The translations under genes were made by a program, and so were the position numbers. A DNA stretch of 39,077 nt from Beijerinckiaceae bacterium. GTDB lineage: Bacteria > Pseudomonadota > Alphaproteobacteria > Rhizobiales > Beijerinckiaceae. Positions 4,178-39,077 of the stretch are shown here, in pieces. Position 1 is the first letter of the stretch, and the number at the start of each line of letters is the position of its first letter. The stretch spans positions 1 to 39,077 of the forward strand of contig CANGFE010000021.1 of NCBI GenBank assembly GCA_947453155.1. The letters are read 5' to 3'. Under the pieces are notes generated by a model. That model ran no database searches. It was given only the letters and a program-made list of their open reading frames with translations, and was not told the origin of the DNA.

Positions 4178-4891
4178 TTAGACCGGACGGCCCGCCAGAT
4201 AGGCCACAGCATCGCCAGCTTCAGGCAGGCTCGCCACCCATGCCGCCGTCATAGCAGAGGCGCCAGCGTCAGCTGCTGCGCGTGCCAATTGTTCTGCGGC
4301 ATCATCATGGCCCTGCGTGGCCAGACGCAAAGCTTCGACTGCCGTCACACCGGTTGCAGCATCCGCATGGAGCAAGGCTTTCACCAAATCAGCCAGTGAA
4401 GCGCCTTTGCGCGGACGCGTCGGCTTCGACACTTTGGTGCGGACGGAGACTTTGCGGGCAGACGACGTCTTCGGCGTTTCAGCCAGACGCGCACGGCCCG
4501 GACGGGCAGGCTTGCGAACGGCACGCGAAACGGACGCCGGAGCGGCTGCCTTCTTCGTCACTGCCTTCTTCGTCACTGCCTTCTTGGCCGCAGCCTTCTT
4601 GGGCGCTGCCTTTTTTGCAGCCGTCTTCTTCACGGCCTTTTTGGCGGAAGATTTCTTGGCGGCCTTTTTAGGGGCTGCTTTCTTGACGGCTTTCTTGGCC
4701 GTTTTCTTGGCAGCTTTTTTGACAGCCTTCTTAGGAGCCGCTTTCTTGGCAGCTTTCTTGGTCACCTTCTTGGCAGCTTTCTTGGCTGACTTTTTAGCAG
4801 CCTTCTTGGCTGCAGCCTTTTTCGTCGCTTTTTTCGGCGCCGCTTTTGCTGCTGCCTTCTTTGCCGTTTTCTTCTTCGCCGCTTTTGCCAT
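4178..4891 (-). CDS. Histone H1-like Lys/Ala-rich repeat protein
   Basis: A 237-residue protein. Residues 1 to about 120 consist almost wholly of tandem KKAAKK/APKKAAK repeats, as in bacterial H1-like proteins and AlgP. Residues 120-165 are Arg/Pro/Ser-rich. The last ~70 residues form a non-repetitive, Ala-rich helical domain (SLADLVKALLHADAATGVTA onward). The basic tail should bind DNA or RNA without strong sequence preference; the C-terminal part may be a separate interaction domain. The start at 4891 has AAGGAG at good spacing. The gene begins only 13 bases after the glcF stop on the same strand, so it may be co-transcribed with glcDEF. The repeat array is prone to length change between strains. 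Confidence 0.85.
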   Translation of the reverse strand: MAKAAKKKTAKKAAAKAAPKKATKKAAAKKAAKKSAKKAAKKVTKKAAKKAAPKKAVKKAAKKTAKKAVKKAAPKKAAKKSSAKKAVKKTAAKKAAPKKAAAKKAVTKKAVTKKAAAPASVSRAVRKPARPGRARLAETPKTSSARKVSVRTKVSKPTRPRKGASLADLVKALLHADAATGVTAVEALRLATQGHDDAAEQLARAAADAGASAMTAAWVASLPEAGDAVAYLAGRPV

Positions 4892-19653: not shown

Positions 19654-19741
19654 TCCGCGCCGGGCTTGGGGTCTATGGCGAACCACCGAGGGCGCCAAAC
19701 TCTTTGGAGCTATGATTAAGATCCACAGGTATCAGGGTTTT

Positions 19742-19770
19742 TGTGCACCGCACAATTTTGTTGCGTTGCA
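19742..19770. promoter_or_regulatory. Candidate PhaR/AniA operator: two TGC-N3-GCA palindromes
   Basis: TGTGC-ACC-GCACA (19742-19754) is a perfect five-base inverted repeat, and TGC-GTT-GCA (19762-19770) repeats the core 18 bases further on, over the -35 of the phasin promoter. PhaR regulators of PHB granule genes are known to bind CTGC-N3/4-GCAG-type palindromes, so a repressor site at a phasin promoter is plausible. Confidence 0.45.
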
Positions 19771-19789
19771 CCATTTTCTCGGTTAATAT
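19761..19789 (+). promoter_or_regulatory. Sigma-70-like promoter for the phasin genes
   Basis: TTGCGT (19761-19766), 17 bases, TAATAT (19784-19789). The predicted start near 19796 would leave a leader of about 70 bases before the first phasin. The -35 overlaps the second TGC-N3-GCA palindrome. Confidence 0.5.
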
Positions 19790-25174: not shown

Positions 25175-26353
25175 TTAACCGCCGCCATACAACCAAGCAA
25201 TGCCTTCAATCGCCTGCTCGGGCGTGCGGCCTTTCAGCATATTGTCGCGCAATTCCGCAATCGGGCCGCGGGCGTGATAGACGTCACCATAGACGCGCGC
25301 CATCAGCTGCACGCGCGCGGTCCGCAAATAACGCGCGTTCTGATAATCCAGCAAAGCGCCTGGAATATCATCGGGCTTGGCCTCGATCTTTTCAGCCAGA
25401 CACACAGCATCTTCCAGCGCCATACAGGCGCCTTGCGCGAGATATTGCAGCATCGGATGCGCGGCATCGCCAATGAGGGTTGCGCGACCTTGCGACCAGT
25501 TTTTCACCGGCTCGCGATCACACAGCACCCACATTTTCCACACGTCGATCTTTTCCAACATGCGCAGAACCTGCGGCACTTGGCCCTTGAAATGCGCATG
25601 CAACAAAGCGGGATCACCCGCCTGATCCCAGCCTTCCGAATAATGATCGGAATGGAACACGGCGACGAGATTATAAAGCTCACCACGGCGCAGCGGATAA
25701 TGGACGAGATGCGTGCGCGGGCCAGCCCAAAGCACAACATCGGGCTTCCACAAATCTTCCGGCACATCTTCGCGCTTCAACACCGCGCGATAGGCAATGT
25801 GGCCAGAGACGCGCGGCTTACCATCACCCACAATTTTCTGCCGCGTCTTCGACCATAGACCATCCGCGCCAATCATGGCGCAGCCGGTGATGATGCGACC
25901 ATCTTCCATCGTCACAACAACTTCGCCGCCCTTGTCCTCGAAATCGAGCACACGGGCCTGCGTTTCCAGCGTGATGTTTTTCATTTTTTGGCAGGCTTCG
26001 AGAATGATGGCCTGCAAATCCGCACGATGGATGACGGCATAAGTGTCACCAAAGCGGCGCGTCAGATCATCACCCAAAGGCATGCGGGTGATGAGATCGC
26101 CGGTGAGTGCATCGCGCATTTCCAAACCCGTAGGAATGGCGACATCTTCCAAGATGCGCTCACGCAGACCGAGCTTTTTGAAAGGTGTGAACACATTAGG
26201 GCCGAGCTGAATGCCCGCACCGATTTCCTTAAACTCGGATGCCTGTTCGAGCACGTGAACGGCAAAGCCTTTTTGAGCCAAGCCTAGCGCGGCACCCAGA
26301 CCGCCAATGCCGCCGCCCACAATAATGAAAGGCTTGTTGTCAGCCTGCGCCAT
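25175..26353 (-). CDS. FAD-dependent monooxygenase, 3-hydroxybenzoate 6-hydroxylase type
   Basis: Flavoprotein aromatic hydroxylase of 392 residues using NAD(P)H and O2. Motifs: GGGIGG at 13-18 (FAD ADP part), DG motif IGADGLWSKTR around 161-171, and GD motif LIGDAAHPMLQYLAQGACMA around 293-311. Neighbours (gentisate dioxygenase and a maleylpyruvate isomerase-type GST) make 3-hydroxybenzoate to gentisate the most likely reaction; salicylate 1- or 5-hydroxylases are the alternatives in the same family. The ATG at 26353 has GGGAGG 5 bases upstream; the longer frame to 26482 runs into marR. It is the last gene of a GST-marR-hydroxylase unit. Confidence 0.9.
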   Translation of the reverse strand: MAQADNKPFIIVGGGIGGLGAALGLAQKGFAVHVLEQASEFKEIGAGIQLGPNVFTPFKKLGLRERILEDVAIPTGLEMRDALTGDLITRMPLGDDLTRRFGDTYAVIHRADLQAIILEACQKMKNITLETQARVLDFEDKGGEVVVTMEDGRIITGCAMIGADGLWSKTRQKIVGDGKPRVSGHIAYRAVLKREDVPEDLWKPDVVLWAGPRTHLVHYPLRRGELYNLVAVFHSDHYSEGWDQAGDPALLHAHFKGQVPQVLRMLEKIDVWKMWVLCDREPVKNWSQGRATLIGDAAHPMLQYLAQGACMALEDAVCLAEKIEAKPDDIPGALLDYQNARYLRTARVQLMARVYGDVYHARGPIAELRDNMLKGRTPEQAIEGIAWLYGGG

Positions 26354-26364
26354 AAAAACCTCCC

Positions 26365-26862
26365 TCAGATCACATCTTGCCGCGCAATCATGCGCCGCAT
26401 CATATTGGTAAATTGCACACGCTCGGCTGCATCCAGCGGCTCCAGCATGCGTGCTTGTGCTGCGCGCACGAAAGGCTCGCAATCAGCCAGCAATTTCGCG
26501 CCACGACGCGAGAGTTTCAAAAGCTTCACGCGCTTGTCCTGCGGATTGGCGCGCCGCTCAATCAGTCCCTTGCCTTCCATCCGCTCCAGCACATTGCCCA
26601 TGGTGGAGCGATCCATCGCCACAAGTGCGCCAATGCGCGTCGCATCAATGCCCGGATTATCGCGCAAAGCGATCAAGGCGGCATATTGCATCGGCGTCAT
26701 GTCAAAGCCTTCGCATTCTTGCGCGAAGACAGAGACCGCCATTTGCTGCAAGCGGCGGATCAAATGGCCGGGTTTGAGATAGACATCATCCATCCCGCCA
26801 TGCGCGGCATCGCGCACGGCTTCTTCCGGCAACAGATCCGCGAGGCTTGACTCACTCGGCAT
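26365..26862 (-). CDS. MarR family transcriptional regulator of the gentisate cluster
   Basis: A 165-residue winged-helix regulator with the full MarR plan: long N-terminal helix (LKPGHLIRRLQQMAVSVFAQ), DNA-binding core (MTPMQYAALIALRDNPGIDA; RIGALVAMDRSTMGNVLERM), wing (RRANPQDKRVKLLKLS) and a C-terminal dimerisation helix. It sits between the GST and hydroxylase genes, overlapping the GST stop by 11 bases, and 11 bases separate its stop from the hydroxylase start. Aromatic acids or their CoA esters are common ligands of MarR proteins in such clusters, so control of the divergent promoters at 27485-27633 is the natural inference. The start at 26862 was chosen by operon overlap. Confidence 0.9.
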   Translation of the reverse strand: MPSESSLADLLPEEAVRDAAHGGMDDVYLKPGHLIRRLQQMAVSVFAQECEGFDMTPMQYAALIALRDNPGIDATRIGALVAMDRSTMGNVLERMEGKGLIERRANPQDKRVKLLKLSRRGAKLLADCEPFVRAAQARMLEPLDAAERVQFTNMMRRMIARQDVI

Positions 26863-27484
26863 CGGGCTGGCGCTCGGGCAGAGCTGACTGGAAAGCCGGC
26901 AGCGCATTGCAGGCGGCTTCCGCTTCATTCAAACGCGTCCAGCCCGAAAAATCGCAGCCGAAGCGACGCGCATTGGCGAGCTGCGGGATGAGGCAAATGT
27001 CAGCCAGCGTCGGCTTATCGCCAAAGCAGAAAGGCCCTTTTGTGTTGCTGAGCAATTTCTCGCAAGCATCCAAGCCCTGCTGGTTGACGCGGCGCGCCCA
27101 ATCATTGACGTCGGCATCGGTATGGCCAAGCGCCTTCACGGCATTGAGCACGCCTAGGTTTTGAACCGGGTGCACATCGCAAGCAATGGCAAGTGCAAAA
27201 GCCCGCACGCGCGCACGCGCCATCGGATCTTTGGGCAAAAGGGCGGGCTCCGGATGGGTCTCTTCGAGCCATTCGAGAATGGCGAGAGACTGCGTCATCA
27301 ACGTGCCATCGTCGAGCTCGAGGGTGGGCACCAGACCTTGCGGGTTTTTTTCGAGATAGGCGGGCTGGCGCTGGTCGCCATGGCGCAACACATAAGAGGT
27401 CTGATCAAAGGGCATGCCCTTCAAAGCCAGCGCAATGCGCAGACGATAGGAAGCCCCGGACCTGAAAAATCCATGCAGACGCAT
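26852..27484 (-). CDS. Maleylpyruvate/maleylacetoacetate isomerase (zeta-class glutathione S-transferase)
   Basis: Cytosolic glutathione-dependent cis-trans isomerase, 210 residues. The N-terminal thioredoxin-like domain has RSGASYRLRIALALKG (the zeta-class active-site serine motif), NPQGLVPTLELDDG (cis-proline) and MTQSLAILEWLEE (glutathione contact). The C-terminal helical domain includes FCFGDKPTLADICLIPQLAN. With gentisate dioxygenase next door, maleylpyruvate to fumarylpyruvate is the likely reaction; maleylacetoacetate isomerase in tyrosine breakdown is the alternative and cannot be excluded by sequence. GGAGG lies 8 bases before the ATG at 27484. It is the first gene of the minus-strand unit. 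Confidence 0.9.
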   Translation of the reverse strand: MRLHGFFRSGASYRLRIALALKGMPFDQTSYVLRHGDQRQPAYLEKNPQGLVPTLELDDGTLMTQSLAILEWLEETHPEPALLPKDPMARARVRAFALAIACDVHPVQNLGVLNAVKALGHTDADVNDWARRVNQQGLDACEKLLSNTKGPFCFGDKPTLADICLIPQLANARRFGCDFSGWTRLNEAEAACNALPAFQSALPERQPDAE

Positions 27485-27535
27485 TCTTATATCCTCCCGT
27501 GGCGCCTGCAAAAACCGGAGCCCAAAAGGCTCTCT

Positions 27536-27559
27536 TGTCAGACGGCCGATGAATTGACA
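27536..27559. promoter_or_regulatory. Inverted repeat in the divergent gentisate promoter region (possible MarR operator)
   Basis: TGTCA (27536-27540), 14 bases, TGACA (27555-27559), between the divergently read GST and gentisate dioxygenase genes. AGTATAC follows directly. The half-site spacing is compatible with a dimeric regulator, but the arms are short and chance occurrence is possible. Confidence 0.3.
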
Positions 27560-27633
27560 GTATACGGAGGAATTGCGGCGTCAAGCTGCTGCCGGGGGCC
27601 CGAAGGGCCCGGCAAACCCCGAGAGGAAACGCC

Positions 27634-28674
27634 ATGAGCGAAGCCGTTGAAACGCCGCAGCGCCGCGCCTTCTACGACAAGATCGACAAGCAGAATCTGA
27701 CGCCGCTGTGGACTGTGCTCTCCTCCATCATCACGCCGGAGCCCAAATCCGCCGCGCAGCCCTTTCTGTGGAAGTTCGACGAGATCCGCGACTATATGGT
27801 CGAGGCCGGCGGCCTGATCACCGCGAAGGAGGCGGAACGCCGCGTGCTCGTGCTGGAAAATCCCGGCCTGCGCGGCAAGTCGAGCATCACGACCTCGCTC
27901 TATGCAGGCGTGCAGCTGGTGTTGCCGGGCGAGATTGCGCCGGCCCACCGTCACAGCCAATCCGCTCTGCGTTTCATTCTGCAAGGCAAAGGCGCGCATA
28001 CGGCCGTCAACGGCGAGCGCACCAAAATGTCGGTGGGTGATTTCATCATCACGCCGTCCAATTCCTGGCATGACCACGGCAATGAATCCGACGAGCCGAT
28101 TTTCTGGCTTGATGGCCTCGATGTGCCGCTCGTCACGGCGCTTGATGCGTCCTTCTTGGAGCATTGGACAGAGGACGAGCAGCCGATCTCGCGCCCCGAG
28201 GGCGATTCTCTGGCGCGCTTTGGTGCGAACCTATTGCCTGTTGATCAGAAGGTGCGCAATCTCACATCACCCGTCTTCAACTATCCCTATGCGCGCACGC
28301 GCGAAGCTCTGGAAATCATGCGCAAGACGAAGGAATTCGATCCCTGCCATGGTTTGAAAATGCGCTACACCAATCCTGAGACAGGCGATCACGCCATGCC
28401 GACGATTGGCGCTTTCATCCAGCTTCTGCCTAAGGGTTTTACAACGAGCCGCTATCGTTCGACCGATGCAACCGTCTTCACCGTTGTTGAAGGCAAAGGC
28501 CGCACGAAAATAGGCGACAAGACGTTTGACTGGAAGCCGCAGGATATTTTCGTCGTCCCAAGCTGGCATCCGGTTGTGCACGAAGCGGATGACGACGCCG
28601 TCATCTTCTCCTTCTCGGATCGTCCCGTGCAGGAGAAACTTGGCCTCTTCCGCGAAGATCGCGGCAACGCCTGA
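27634..28674 (+). CDS. Gentisate 1,2-dioxygenase
   Basis: Ring-cleaving Fe(II) bicupin enzyme, 346 residues, turning gentisate into maleylpyruvate. The first cupin holds the metal ligands: AHRHSQSALRF (His105, His107) and SWHDHGN (His146, His148). The second cupin (TDATVFTVVEGKGRTKIGD; VVPSWHPVVHEADDD) is partly degenerate, as usual. The closing SFSDRPVQEKLGLFRE is typical of the family. GAGAGGA precedes the ATG. It is divergent from the GST-marR-hydroxylase unit with 149 bases between, and followed by a palindromic repeat and then a terminator. I use no symbol because gtdA, nagI, sdgD and xlnE are all in use. Confidence 0.95.
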   Translation: MSEAVETPQRRAFYDKIDKQNLTPLWTVLSSIITPEPKSAAQPFLWKFDEIRDYMVEAGGLITAKEAERRVLVLENPGLRGKSSITTSLYAGVQLVLPGEIAPAHRHSQSALRFILQGKGAHTAVNGERTKMSVGDFIITPSNSWHDHGNESDEPIFWLDGLDVPLVTALDASFLEHWTEDEQPISRPEGDSLARFGANLLPVDQKVRNLTSPVFNYPYARTREALEIMRKTKEFDPCHGLKMRYTNPETGDHAMPTIGAFIQLLPKGFTTSRYRSTDATVFTVVEGKGRTKIGDKTFDWKPQDIFVVPSWHPVVHEADDDAVIFSFSDRPVQEKLGLFREDRGNA

Positions 28675-37974: not shown

Positions 37975-38268
37975 TTAGGCTTCAAAACCCTCGACCAGCA
38001 CGAATTCCCCATCGGCAGCGCCGACGCGATGCTGGCGGGCAGCCTGATATTCCGGCGAGTAATAATAAGCACGCGCCTGATCGTAGCTGTCGAATTCCAT
38101 CACCACATTGCGGGTGCGGGCCGTACCTTCGAGCGCCTCATGCTTGCCACCGCGCACCAGCGGGCGGGCGCCAAATTTCTTCACAGCGTCAGCTGTGGCA
38201 GCCGCATAGCGGGCATAGGCTTCCGGATCTTTCACATCCACGCGCACGATGATGTAACCCTTGGGCAT
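37975..38268 (-). CDS. DUF1330 family protein
   Basis: A 97-residue dimeric alpha-beta barrel protein: MPKGYIIVRVDVKDPEAYAR, PLVRGGKHEALEGT, RNVVMEFDSYDQARAYYYSP and EYQAARQHR are the usual DUF1330 segments. The family belongs to the ferredoxin-like antibiotic-biosynthesis monooxygenase superfamily, but a reaction is not established. GAGGAG lies 7 bases before the ATG. It is monocistronic as far as can be seen. Confidence 0.92.
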   Translation of the reverse strand: MPKGYIIVRVDVKDPEAYARYAAATADAVKKFGARPLVRGGKHEALEGTARTRNVVMEFDSYDQARAYYYSPEYQAARQHRVGAADGEFVLVEGFEA

Positions 38269-38452
38269 GCTTTGTCTCCTCTTGCTTAGGTCAGCTCAAC
38301 CGTGGCGGACCATGGCAAGCCGAGCTTACGCTGGCAAGCGCCTTCACCAGAAAGCTTAAGACCTTGGTTGCTGCGCGGCTGGATCGCGGACGAAAGTCGA
38401 TGATCAATTTGCAACAGCACGCAACATTGCGAGACAGCGGATTCATTGGCGC

Positions 38453-38480
38453 TTGTCTCTTCGCGAAACGCGTTTAGCCT
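38453..38480 (+). promoter_or_regulatory. Candidate promoter of the small RNA
   Basis: TTGTCT (38453-38458), 16 bases, TAGCCT (38475-38480). Both boxes are weak but correctly spaced, and a start near 38486 would put the first small RNA hairpin at the 5' end. No better candidate lies in 38269-38485, which otherwise holds nothing I recognise. Confidence 0.35.
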
Positions 38481-38485
38481 TTGAT

Positions 38486-38552
38486 CTGCGCCCTTGGCGC
38501 GTTTCCTCCCCGACTTGAGCCGCCAGGCGTTGCGCCGGCGGCTTCTTTTTTT
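38486..38552 (+). ncRNA. Candidate trans-acting small RNA, MmgR/suhB (alpha-r8)-like
   Basis: About 67 bases with no reading frame: a 5' hairpin GCGCC-CTT-GGCGC (38488-38500), a single-stranded pyrimidine stretch TTTCCTCCCC (38502-38511), and a very strong terminator (AGCCGCC 38518-38524 with GGCGGCT 38537-38543, extended by an inner GGCG/CGCC stem) ending TCTTTTTTT. The terminator's U-run is on the plus strand, yet both neighbouring protein genes are on the minus strand, so it must end an RNA gene. The architecture and the pyrimidine motif match, from memory, the Hfq-bound MmgR RNA of Sinorhizobium meliloti (Rfam suhB family), whose conserved unpaired motif is UUUCCUCCCU. Confidence 0.65.
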
Positions 38553-38555
38553 GAC

Positions 38556-39077
38556 TCAGCGGAAACCAGCGACTGCTGCGACCATGCGCGCTTCGATGCT
38601 ATTGAAACCGTGATAGCCCCAAGCATCGCAAGGATCGCCTTCGGTGATGCCGCCATCAAGCCACGTCACGCGTGCTTTTTTGCCCGCCCATTTCATGAAG
38701 GGTTCAACACCTGCAGGCAGAGTGACGCGGCATCCATCTTGCCGATGATGCACAATCAAGGTCGGCGGCAATTTGTCGGGCGTGCCCAAGACAGTAGAGA
38801 CGTTCAACGAGCGGTGACCGGATTCCGGCGTCAGCATGCCTGACGTCAAAACCAAACGATCAGGCCGCGCGCCTTTGGCAATGCCTTGGGCCGCGCGCAA
38901 TGTGCCGCGGCTTGTGCCAGCCACAATCACGGGGCGTTTGAGTGCGCGCATATATTCAACAGCTGCACTCAAATCCGTATCCGCATCAACAATCAGCACG
39001 AGAAAATTGCGCTTCACAAAATCATCGGCTGTGCGCACCAAAGAATTGCCTTTCATGCGCCCAAGGTGGCCATCCGA
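38556..39077 (-). CDS. Alpha/beta hydrolase, N-terminus cut by window edge
   Basis: The frame stays open to the last base, so an internal methionine at 39056 is not the start; the upstream residues read SDGHLGR in front of MKGNSLVRTADDFV. The visible 173 residues contain the nucleophile elbow VIVAGTSRGTLRAA (G-T-S-R-G), a later aspartate in IVHHRQDGC and a histidine in WGYHGFNSIEARMV, giving a plausible Ser-Asp-His triad. ITEGDPCDAWGYHG gives a cysteine that could pair with DGC. Substrate unknown. The stop lies 3 bases after the end of the small RNA terminator on the opposite strand. Confidence 0.8.
   Translation of the reverse strand, partial: SDGHLGRMKGNSLVRTADDFVKRNFLVLIVDADTDLSAAVEYMRALKRPVIVAGTSRGTLRAAQGIAKGARPDRLVLTSGMLTPESGHRSLNVSTVLGTPDKLPPTLIVHHRQDGCRVTLPAGVEPFMKWAGKKARVTWLDGGITEGDPCDAWGYHGFNSIEARMVAAVAGFR

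Follow-up and report, generated by a model that had tools for sequence, protein, structure and literature searches.

AbcR1 and AbcR2, which control many transport-system mRNAs in rhizobia and their relatives, belong to a different RNA family from the small RNA described here; the latter matches the Rfam family RF00519 instead, and transport mRNAs are likewise proposed as its targets. RF00519, or suhB, is the family of MmgR of Sinorhizobium meliloti (PMC8401924, in part), and the promoters of mmgR and of phasin genes in that species carry the PhaR motif WNWDDNYGCRNYGCRNHHWNW (PMC12542648, in part). According to excerpts of PMC12559287, the single copy found in most species adjoins an N-formylglutamate amidohydrolase (FGase) gene, MmgR has no identified direct base-pairing partner, and it is called open whether carbon metabolism is what every alpha-r8 copy serves. 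The same excerpts describe SisA-D, alpha-r8 RNAs of Caulobacter crescentus: SisA uses the 10-mer of the family to repress the mRNA of a TonB receptor, transporters are frequent among its targets, and its seed is described with an anti-Shine-Dalgarno signature. The word 'tricarboxylate' is absent from the main text of that paper.

Near the end of the window, which is the whole 39,077-nucleotide stretch of Beijerinckiaceae DNA analyzed here, lies a genuine MmgR-type small RNA gene. The window copy resembles MmgR of S. meliloti in size and in its plan of hairpin, unpaired C/U-rich 10-mer, and terminator, and the two are homologous by covariance model. Unlike MmgR, the window copy lies away from the inositol monophosphatase (IMPase)/FGase locus and is without the PhaR operator core, its tenth seed base is C for U, and its hairpin has other letters; its CCC and GACUU are also one base closer together than in the canonical copies from its own genome (G000). 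Like SisA-D, it is one of several siblings with a common seed and unrelated promoters, but the targets shown for SisA are TonB receptors (PMC12559287, in part), whereas those proposed here are TctC/BUG solute-binding protein genes.

Anatomy, family, and conservation of the window RNA

The features of the locus are, by position in the window:

37975..38268, minus strand: DUF1330 gene (PF07045), the upstream neighbor, present at 8 of 10 orthologous loci
38393..38416, plus strand: 24-base upstream block AAAGTCGATGATCAATTTGCAACA, strongly conserved and at a fixed distance from the putative promoter
38453..38458, plus strand: putative -35 element TTGTCT, with TTG[TC] there in 13 of 13 branch sequences
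38475..38480, plus strand: putative, weak -10 element TAGCCT, 16 nt past the -35 element
about 38484..38552, plus strand: small RNA, predicted transcript of ~69 nt (RF00519 match 38481-38558, fold z -3.48, kept in 13 genomes), with an uncertain 5' end at about 38481-38488
38487..38501, plus strand: 5' hairpin GCGCC-CUU-GGCGC plus a U-G pair (consensus fold of 11 sequences)
38502..38511, plus strand: unpaired seed UUUCCUCCCC (DNA TTTCCTCCCC; family motif UUUCCUCCCU), from fold and alignment
38517..38545, plus strand: GC-rich stem-loop of the intrinsic terminator (consensus and single-sequence folds)
38543..38552, plus strand: T-rich tail of the terminator, read from the sequence
38556..39077, minus strand: hydrolase-like gene, the downstream neighbor, cut by the contig end, with a weak Hydrolase_4 match below cut-off

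A sequence-only reading had placed a short hairpin, an unpaired motif, and a strong terminator on the plus strand, and all three are present: the segment 38484-38552 folds at -30.3 kcal/mol (z -3.48), a stability equaled by none of 200 shuffles, and leaves the seed unpaired. In a fold started at 38453 the seed is partly buried, GAAACGCG pairing with CGCGUUUC, because promoter bases are then included. Of the interval 38453-38552 that had been put forward, the part from about 38484 is the predicted RNA and the first ~30 bases resemble promoter DNA. The sole plus-strand open reading frame (ORF) of at least 40 aa that overlaps 38453-38552 (38481-38843, with a TTG start) runs for the most part opposite a minus-strand gene that is kept at the orthologous loci. 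The pairs of the 5' hairpin are almost invariant in the consensus fold of 11 sequences, and covariation supports 0 of 17 pairs in the alignment of branch sequences because the helices hardly vary.

The RF00519 model aligns end to end with the window copy (38481-38558) at 36.9 bits, with an E-value of 3.7e-6 when 401 bases were compared with all Rfam families and 6.1e-6 over the 2.79 Mb genome. The covariance-model search that had been proposed as a check therefore gives a significant match, one that lies below the curated gathering cut-off of 41 bits; an Rfam scan of the window at the gathering threshold returned two tRNAs only. Among the ten window-type copies listed, two reach 41 bits (41.8 in G019 and 41 in G025). 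Some caution on specificity is due, as RF00519 at E 0.001 also matched Thermus composti below the cut-off. The window copy has the rho-independent 3' terminator of the family, and its seed, unpaired and 3' of the hairpin, is identical to the strict 10-mer at 9 of 10 bases, so that we file it as a variant branch rather than as a strict member. Homology of the window RNA to the suhB/mmgR (alpha-r8) RNAs is supported, and its branch illustrates that a covariance-model cut-off is able to hide a conserved lineage.

Close DNA matches to the window copy occur in nine other genomes of the same genus (E <=4e-9, 61 genomes searched), and a degenerate pattern run over a collection of 84,980 species found 10 stretches, all in metagenome-assembled genomes whose titles read Rhizobiales, Hyphomicrobiales or, for four of them, Beijerinckiaceae. 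A covariance model built from these ten stretches and the window copy (R1, 11 sequences) was applied to 51 genomes from this genus and scored 63-105 bits in 12 of them, 11 of which, matched by contig and sequence, hold training sequences and score high by construction for that reason. G072, at 49.5 bits, was taken as a thirteenth on inspection, having the same upstream block and core, and the next scores (47.7 and 46.5) are canonical copies. The window-type branch is thus found in 13 of 51 genomes, with G063 and G072 as the independent finds. It keeps UUCCUCCC[C/G]GACU plus a GCGC-type hairpin, and its locus is kept as well, with the hydrolase-like gene at 8 of 10 orthologous loci, one of them partial. 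Hairpin and motif are conserved in related genomes, as the sequence-only reading would have them: both hairpin and core are almost invariant among orthologues of the 13-genome branch, in surrounding DNA that has diverged. At L064, a small minus-strand gene (4216-4500, 94 aa, without a Pfam match) lies just upstream of the RNA; alignment places this type of gene in six orthologous loci (L064 and L067-L071, with ORFs read for L064 and L067), and it was not seen in the window.

Sibling copies, promoters, and phasins

Own genome G000 (2.79 Mb, 83.6% complete) contains five RF00519 matches, all with E <=4.1e-5, the next match having an E-value of 0.006:

C26 copy, 69.4 bits: between inositol monophosphatase (PF00459) and N-formylglutamate amidohydrolase/FGase (PF05013)
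C93 copy, 66.4 bits: between multicopper oxidase and NAD(P)H-hydrate dehydratase
C19 copy, 56.6 bits: between PrkA and a dihydroxy-acid dehydratase-type protein
window copy, 36.9 bits: beside the DUF1330 gene and the hydrolase-like gene
C5 copy (weak; G000:C5:9591-9664), 33.6 bits: altered core CUCCUCCCUUGACU, beside an EAL-domain gene

The C26 copy is at the MmgR-type position of G000, because PF00459 and PF05013 genes flank it; the window copy is not at such a locus and has no PhaR/AniA operator in its promoter. A 9-base PhaR core lies at -44 relative to the model start in both the C26 and the C93 copy, neither of which has the full 21-base motif, and the core was not found in the 130 bases upstream of the window, C19, and C5 copies. 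Counted over distinct copies, at loci chosen by search rank rather than at random, the core occurs upstream of 39 of 61 other copies, in 30 of the 61 at promoter distance, against a mean of 1.9 and a maximum of 7 in mononucleotide shuffles; among window-type copies it occurs upstream of 1 of 13, far upstream, and of 0 of 13 at promoter distance. The window copy is therefore an extra, changed copy and not the known PHB regulator MmgR of G000. Canonical copies also stand as tandem pairs ~200-300 bases apart in several genomes, including G005, G016, G022, G031, and G033.

A strict scan for consensus sigma-70 promoters found none at the window copy. The ATG of the upstream block (AAAGTCGATGACGAATTTGCAACA and variants) lies 53 bases before the TTG of the putative -35 element in 13 of 13 sequences, and the block may either bind a regulator or open a 25-codon ORF. 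We rejected it as a repeated regulatory element: with up to 3 mismatches it was found in 5 of 37 genomes, with a single occurrence per genome and always at the RNA locus.

The two phasin genes noticed in the window are confirmed by PF09361 matches (E 6.9e-15 and 6.1e-16). The full PhaR motif occurs in the window only at 19738 and 19756 (19738-19776), before phasin 1, and the 18 bp between the two is the spacing at S. meliloti phaP1 (PMC12542648, in part). The phasins look PHB-regulated through PhaR.

Three other accounts of the RNA itself have to be weighed against this record. That the window RNA is MmgR, limiting PHB storage by repressing the window phasins, draws on the RF00519 resemblance and on the presence of two phasins. 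The sequence-only reading, which called the RNA MmgR/suhB-type, is supported for the family and not for the identity, as the copy with the MmgR-type locus and PhaR core sits on C26 and window-type copies are without that core at promoter position, where 30 of 61 other copies have it. Its further suggestion of an action on the phasins finds little in the predicted pairing, which at the start sites is weak (-7.6 kcal/mol for phasin 1 and -11.8 for phasin 2, ranks 30 and 25 among 38 window genes with a generous choice of starts); we rejected the phasins as targets on this ground and consider the whole account very unlikely. The PHB reading belongs to other copies, if anywhere in G000. An origin of the RNA as the 3' end of a longer mRNA with the 25-codon ORF (MINLQQ...), processed from a coding transcript, is somewhat less improbable but still unlikely. 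The conserved block does have a start codon, and the frame is open beyond the -35 element in 12 of 13 branch sequences, but stops in the other two frames are barely commoner (3 of 13 and 3 of 13 versus 1 of 13), TTG[TC] is fixed in place as in a promoter, and codon positions 1, 2, and 3 differ 465, 476, and 517 times, without third-position excess. The codon-position counts do not speak for a coding ORF, and we set that reading aside. Decay of a non-functional MmgR duplicate would fit the low RF00519 score, but given a hairpin and core held almost unchanged in diverged surroundings we give this explanation next to no weight.

TctC/BUG start sites and the shared seed

Taking the homology, the conserved anatomy and locus, the four other G000 copies, and the absent PhaR core observed here together with the target statistics below, we think it probable, though well short of certain, that the window RNA belongs to a branch of the alpha-r8 (suhB/mmgR, SisA-D) small RNAs that is divergent and restricted to one lineage, with a seed that represses TctC/BUG start sites and an input independent of PhaR. 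The RNA would be transcribed from its own promoter, end at the intrinsic terminator, and bind Hfq. Its unpaired UUCCUCCC core, an anti-Shine-Dalgarno look-alike, would cover ribosome-binding sites and so repress translation, a mechanism that is likely by analogy with SisA, on which it is modeled. The main shared targets of the siblings would be the TctC/BUG solute-binding protein genes that belong to tripartite tricarboxylate transporters, and the window copy would be a PhaR-independent input to this network. Parts of the complement GGGAGGAA are enriched in the ribosome-binding sites of these genes. The lead concerns the core common to the siblings and not the window copy alone. Two observations count against the proposal: across BUG sites the canonical seed fits slightly better than the window seed (median pairing energy -16.1 versus -15.2 kcal/mol), and the changed tenth seed base of the window copy is, by eye, not mirrored in candidate sites. 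A literature search found no paper on small-RNA base-pairing with tripartite tricarboxylate transporters, a search on tctC with sRNA and Hfq gave none on the topic by title among the matches listed, and the excerpted parts of PMC5760752 and PMC5688073 hold nothing on TctC regulation.

G000 has 57 TctC/BUG solute-binding protein genes at E 1e-5 within its 2.79 Mb, 56 of them above the family cut-off. The complement of the shared core, GGGAGGAA, occurs 46 times in G000, 3 of these being the RNA genes themselves, and its reversed control 16 times. Among 45 sites that were read (two of them RNA genes), 25 lie 2-13 nt before the start codon of an ORF of at least 60 aa; of these 25 genes, 7 are among the 57 TctC/BUG genes and another two resemble them on visual reading. 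The controls were 262 other ORFs, 33 of them secreted-like, taken from the window and from 15 further stretches of 20 kb each, with starts scored alike. GGGAGG stands in the ribosome-binding site of 28 of 57 BUG genes, whereas the controls have it in 10 of 262 (p 2e-16) and their secreted-like subset in 2 of 33 (p 2e-5). GGAGGA is present in 31 of 57 versus 9 of 262 and 1 of 33. All 8 bases of GGGAGGAA occur in only 7 of 57 versus 1 of 262. The BUG proteins have diverged (the closest paralogue has a median identity of 44%, and 3 exceed 60%), and recent duplication is therefore unlikely as the cause of the shared site. Among the Peripla_BP_6 proteins of G000, GGGAGGA was found in 1 of 7, too few to weigh.

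The signature could instead reflect only strong ribosome-binding sites unrelated to the RNA, and this is the rival that we take most seriously, as a real possibility that nonetheless falls short of an even chance. BUG sites do pair better with the 16S tail than those of other ORFs (median -10.3 versus -6.4 kcal/mol), and part of the signal could therefore come from strong translation alone. Better pairing with 16S RNA is not enough to account for the excess, because the flanking bases shift from the 16S complement to that of the small RNA: among sites with GGAGG, G precedes in 28 of 40 BUG genes versus 10 of 24 others (p 0.04) and A follows in 31 of 40 versus 9 of 24 (p 0.003), where the 16S tail prefers A and U. 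The scarcity of GGGAGG in secreted-like ORFs of G000 also speaks against mere site strength, as does G093, a genome of the same phylum that RF00519 does not match at E 0.01. G093 has at least 34 BUG genes, and both GGAGG and GGGAGG are missing from all of the 24 best-scoring ones. G109, of the same order and with three RF00519 copies, has GGGAGG in 10 of its 24 best-scoring BUG genes and GGAGGA in 4 of 24 (p 0.11 versus G093), a weak A side; in both genomes the counts cover the best-scoring 24 genes and not all. In favor of the strong-site explanation, G093 has a different special site common to its BUG genes, so that a uniform site alone is no proof of alpha-r8 pairing. This site, GGAGACA, occurs in 16 of 24 G093 BUG genes versus 0 of 70 other ORFs of the same stretches (loci L246, L257, L265, L271, and L273-L292), and possibly belongs to another small-RNA network.

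If BUG sites are indeed targets of the shared seed, the alpha-r8 siblings may run a large post-transcriptional switch over TctC/BUG uptake genes in the genus, and perhaps the order, on which carbon-storage signals (through PhaR) and a second, PhaR-independent one (through the window copy) converge. The mRNAs would then have a common ribosome-binding site fitted to the seed, with promoters that differ from sibling to sibling. We hold this wider picture tentatively. Such a site, common to dozens of G000 uptake genes, offers a directly testable answer on the role of the alpha-r8 copies, and could explain why several copies with different promoters are kept in a small genome.

Other partners were considered. 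We rejected a CrfA-like sponge, sought solely as a perfect 10-base complement (RGGGAGGAAA), which has only two occurrences outside RNA genes, against 4 of the control pattern; one lies opposite a long coding ORF and the other at an NMT1-type binding protein gene. On C51 lies a long stretch that is partly complementary, and no Rfam family matches it at E 0.01. The NMT1-type gene keeps GGGAGGAA in all 8 genomes that have both this gene and a window-type RNA, against 0 of 10 other genomes. This association counts as weak because descent also divides the two groups, most or all of the 10 others have canonical copies, and five window-type genomes have no match to the gene. In the window itself, genes for an FAD monooxygenase, a GST-like protein, and a cupin protein lie at 25178-28674 and may form a gentisate cluster. 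The start sites of the GST and cupin genes pair fairly well with the window RNA (-18.5 and -18.6 kcal/mol).
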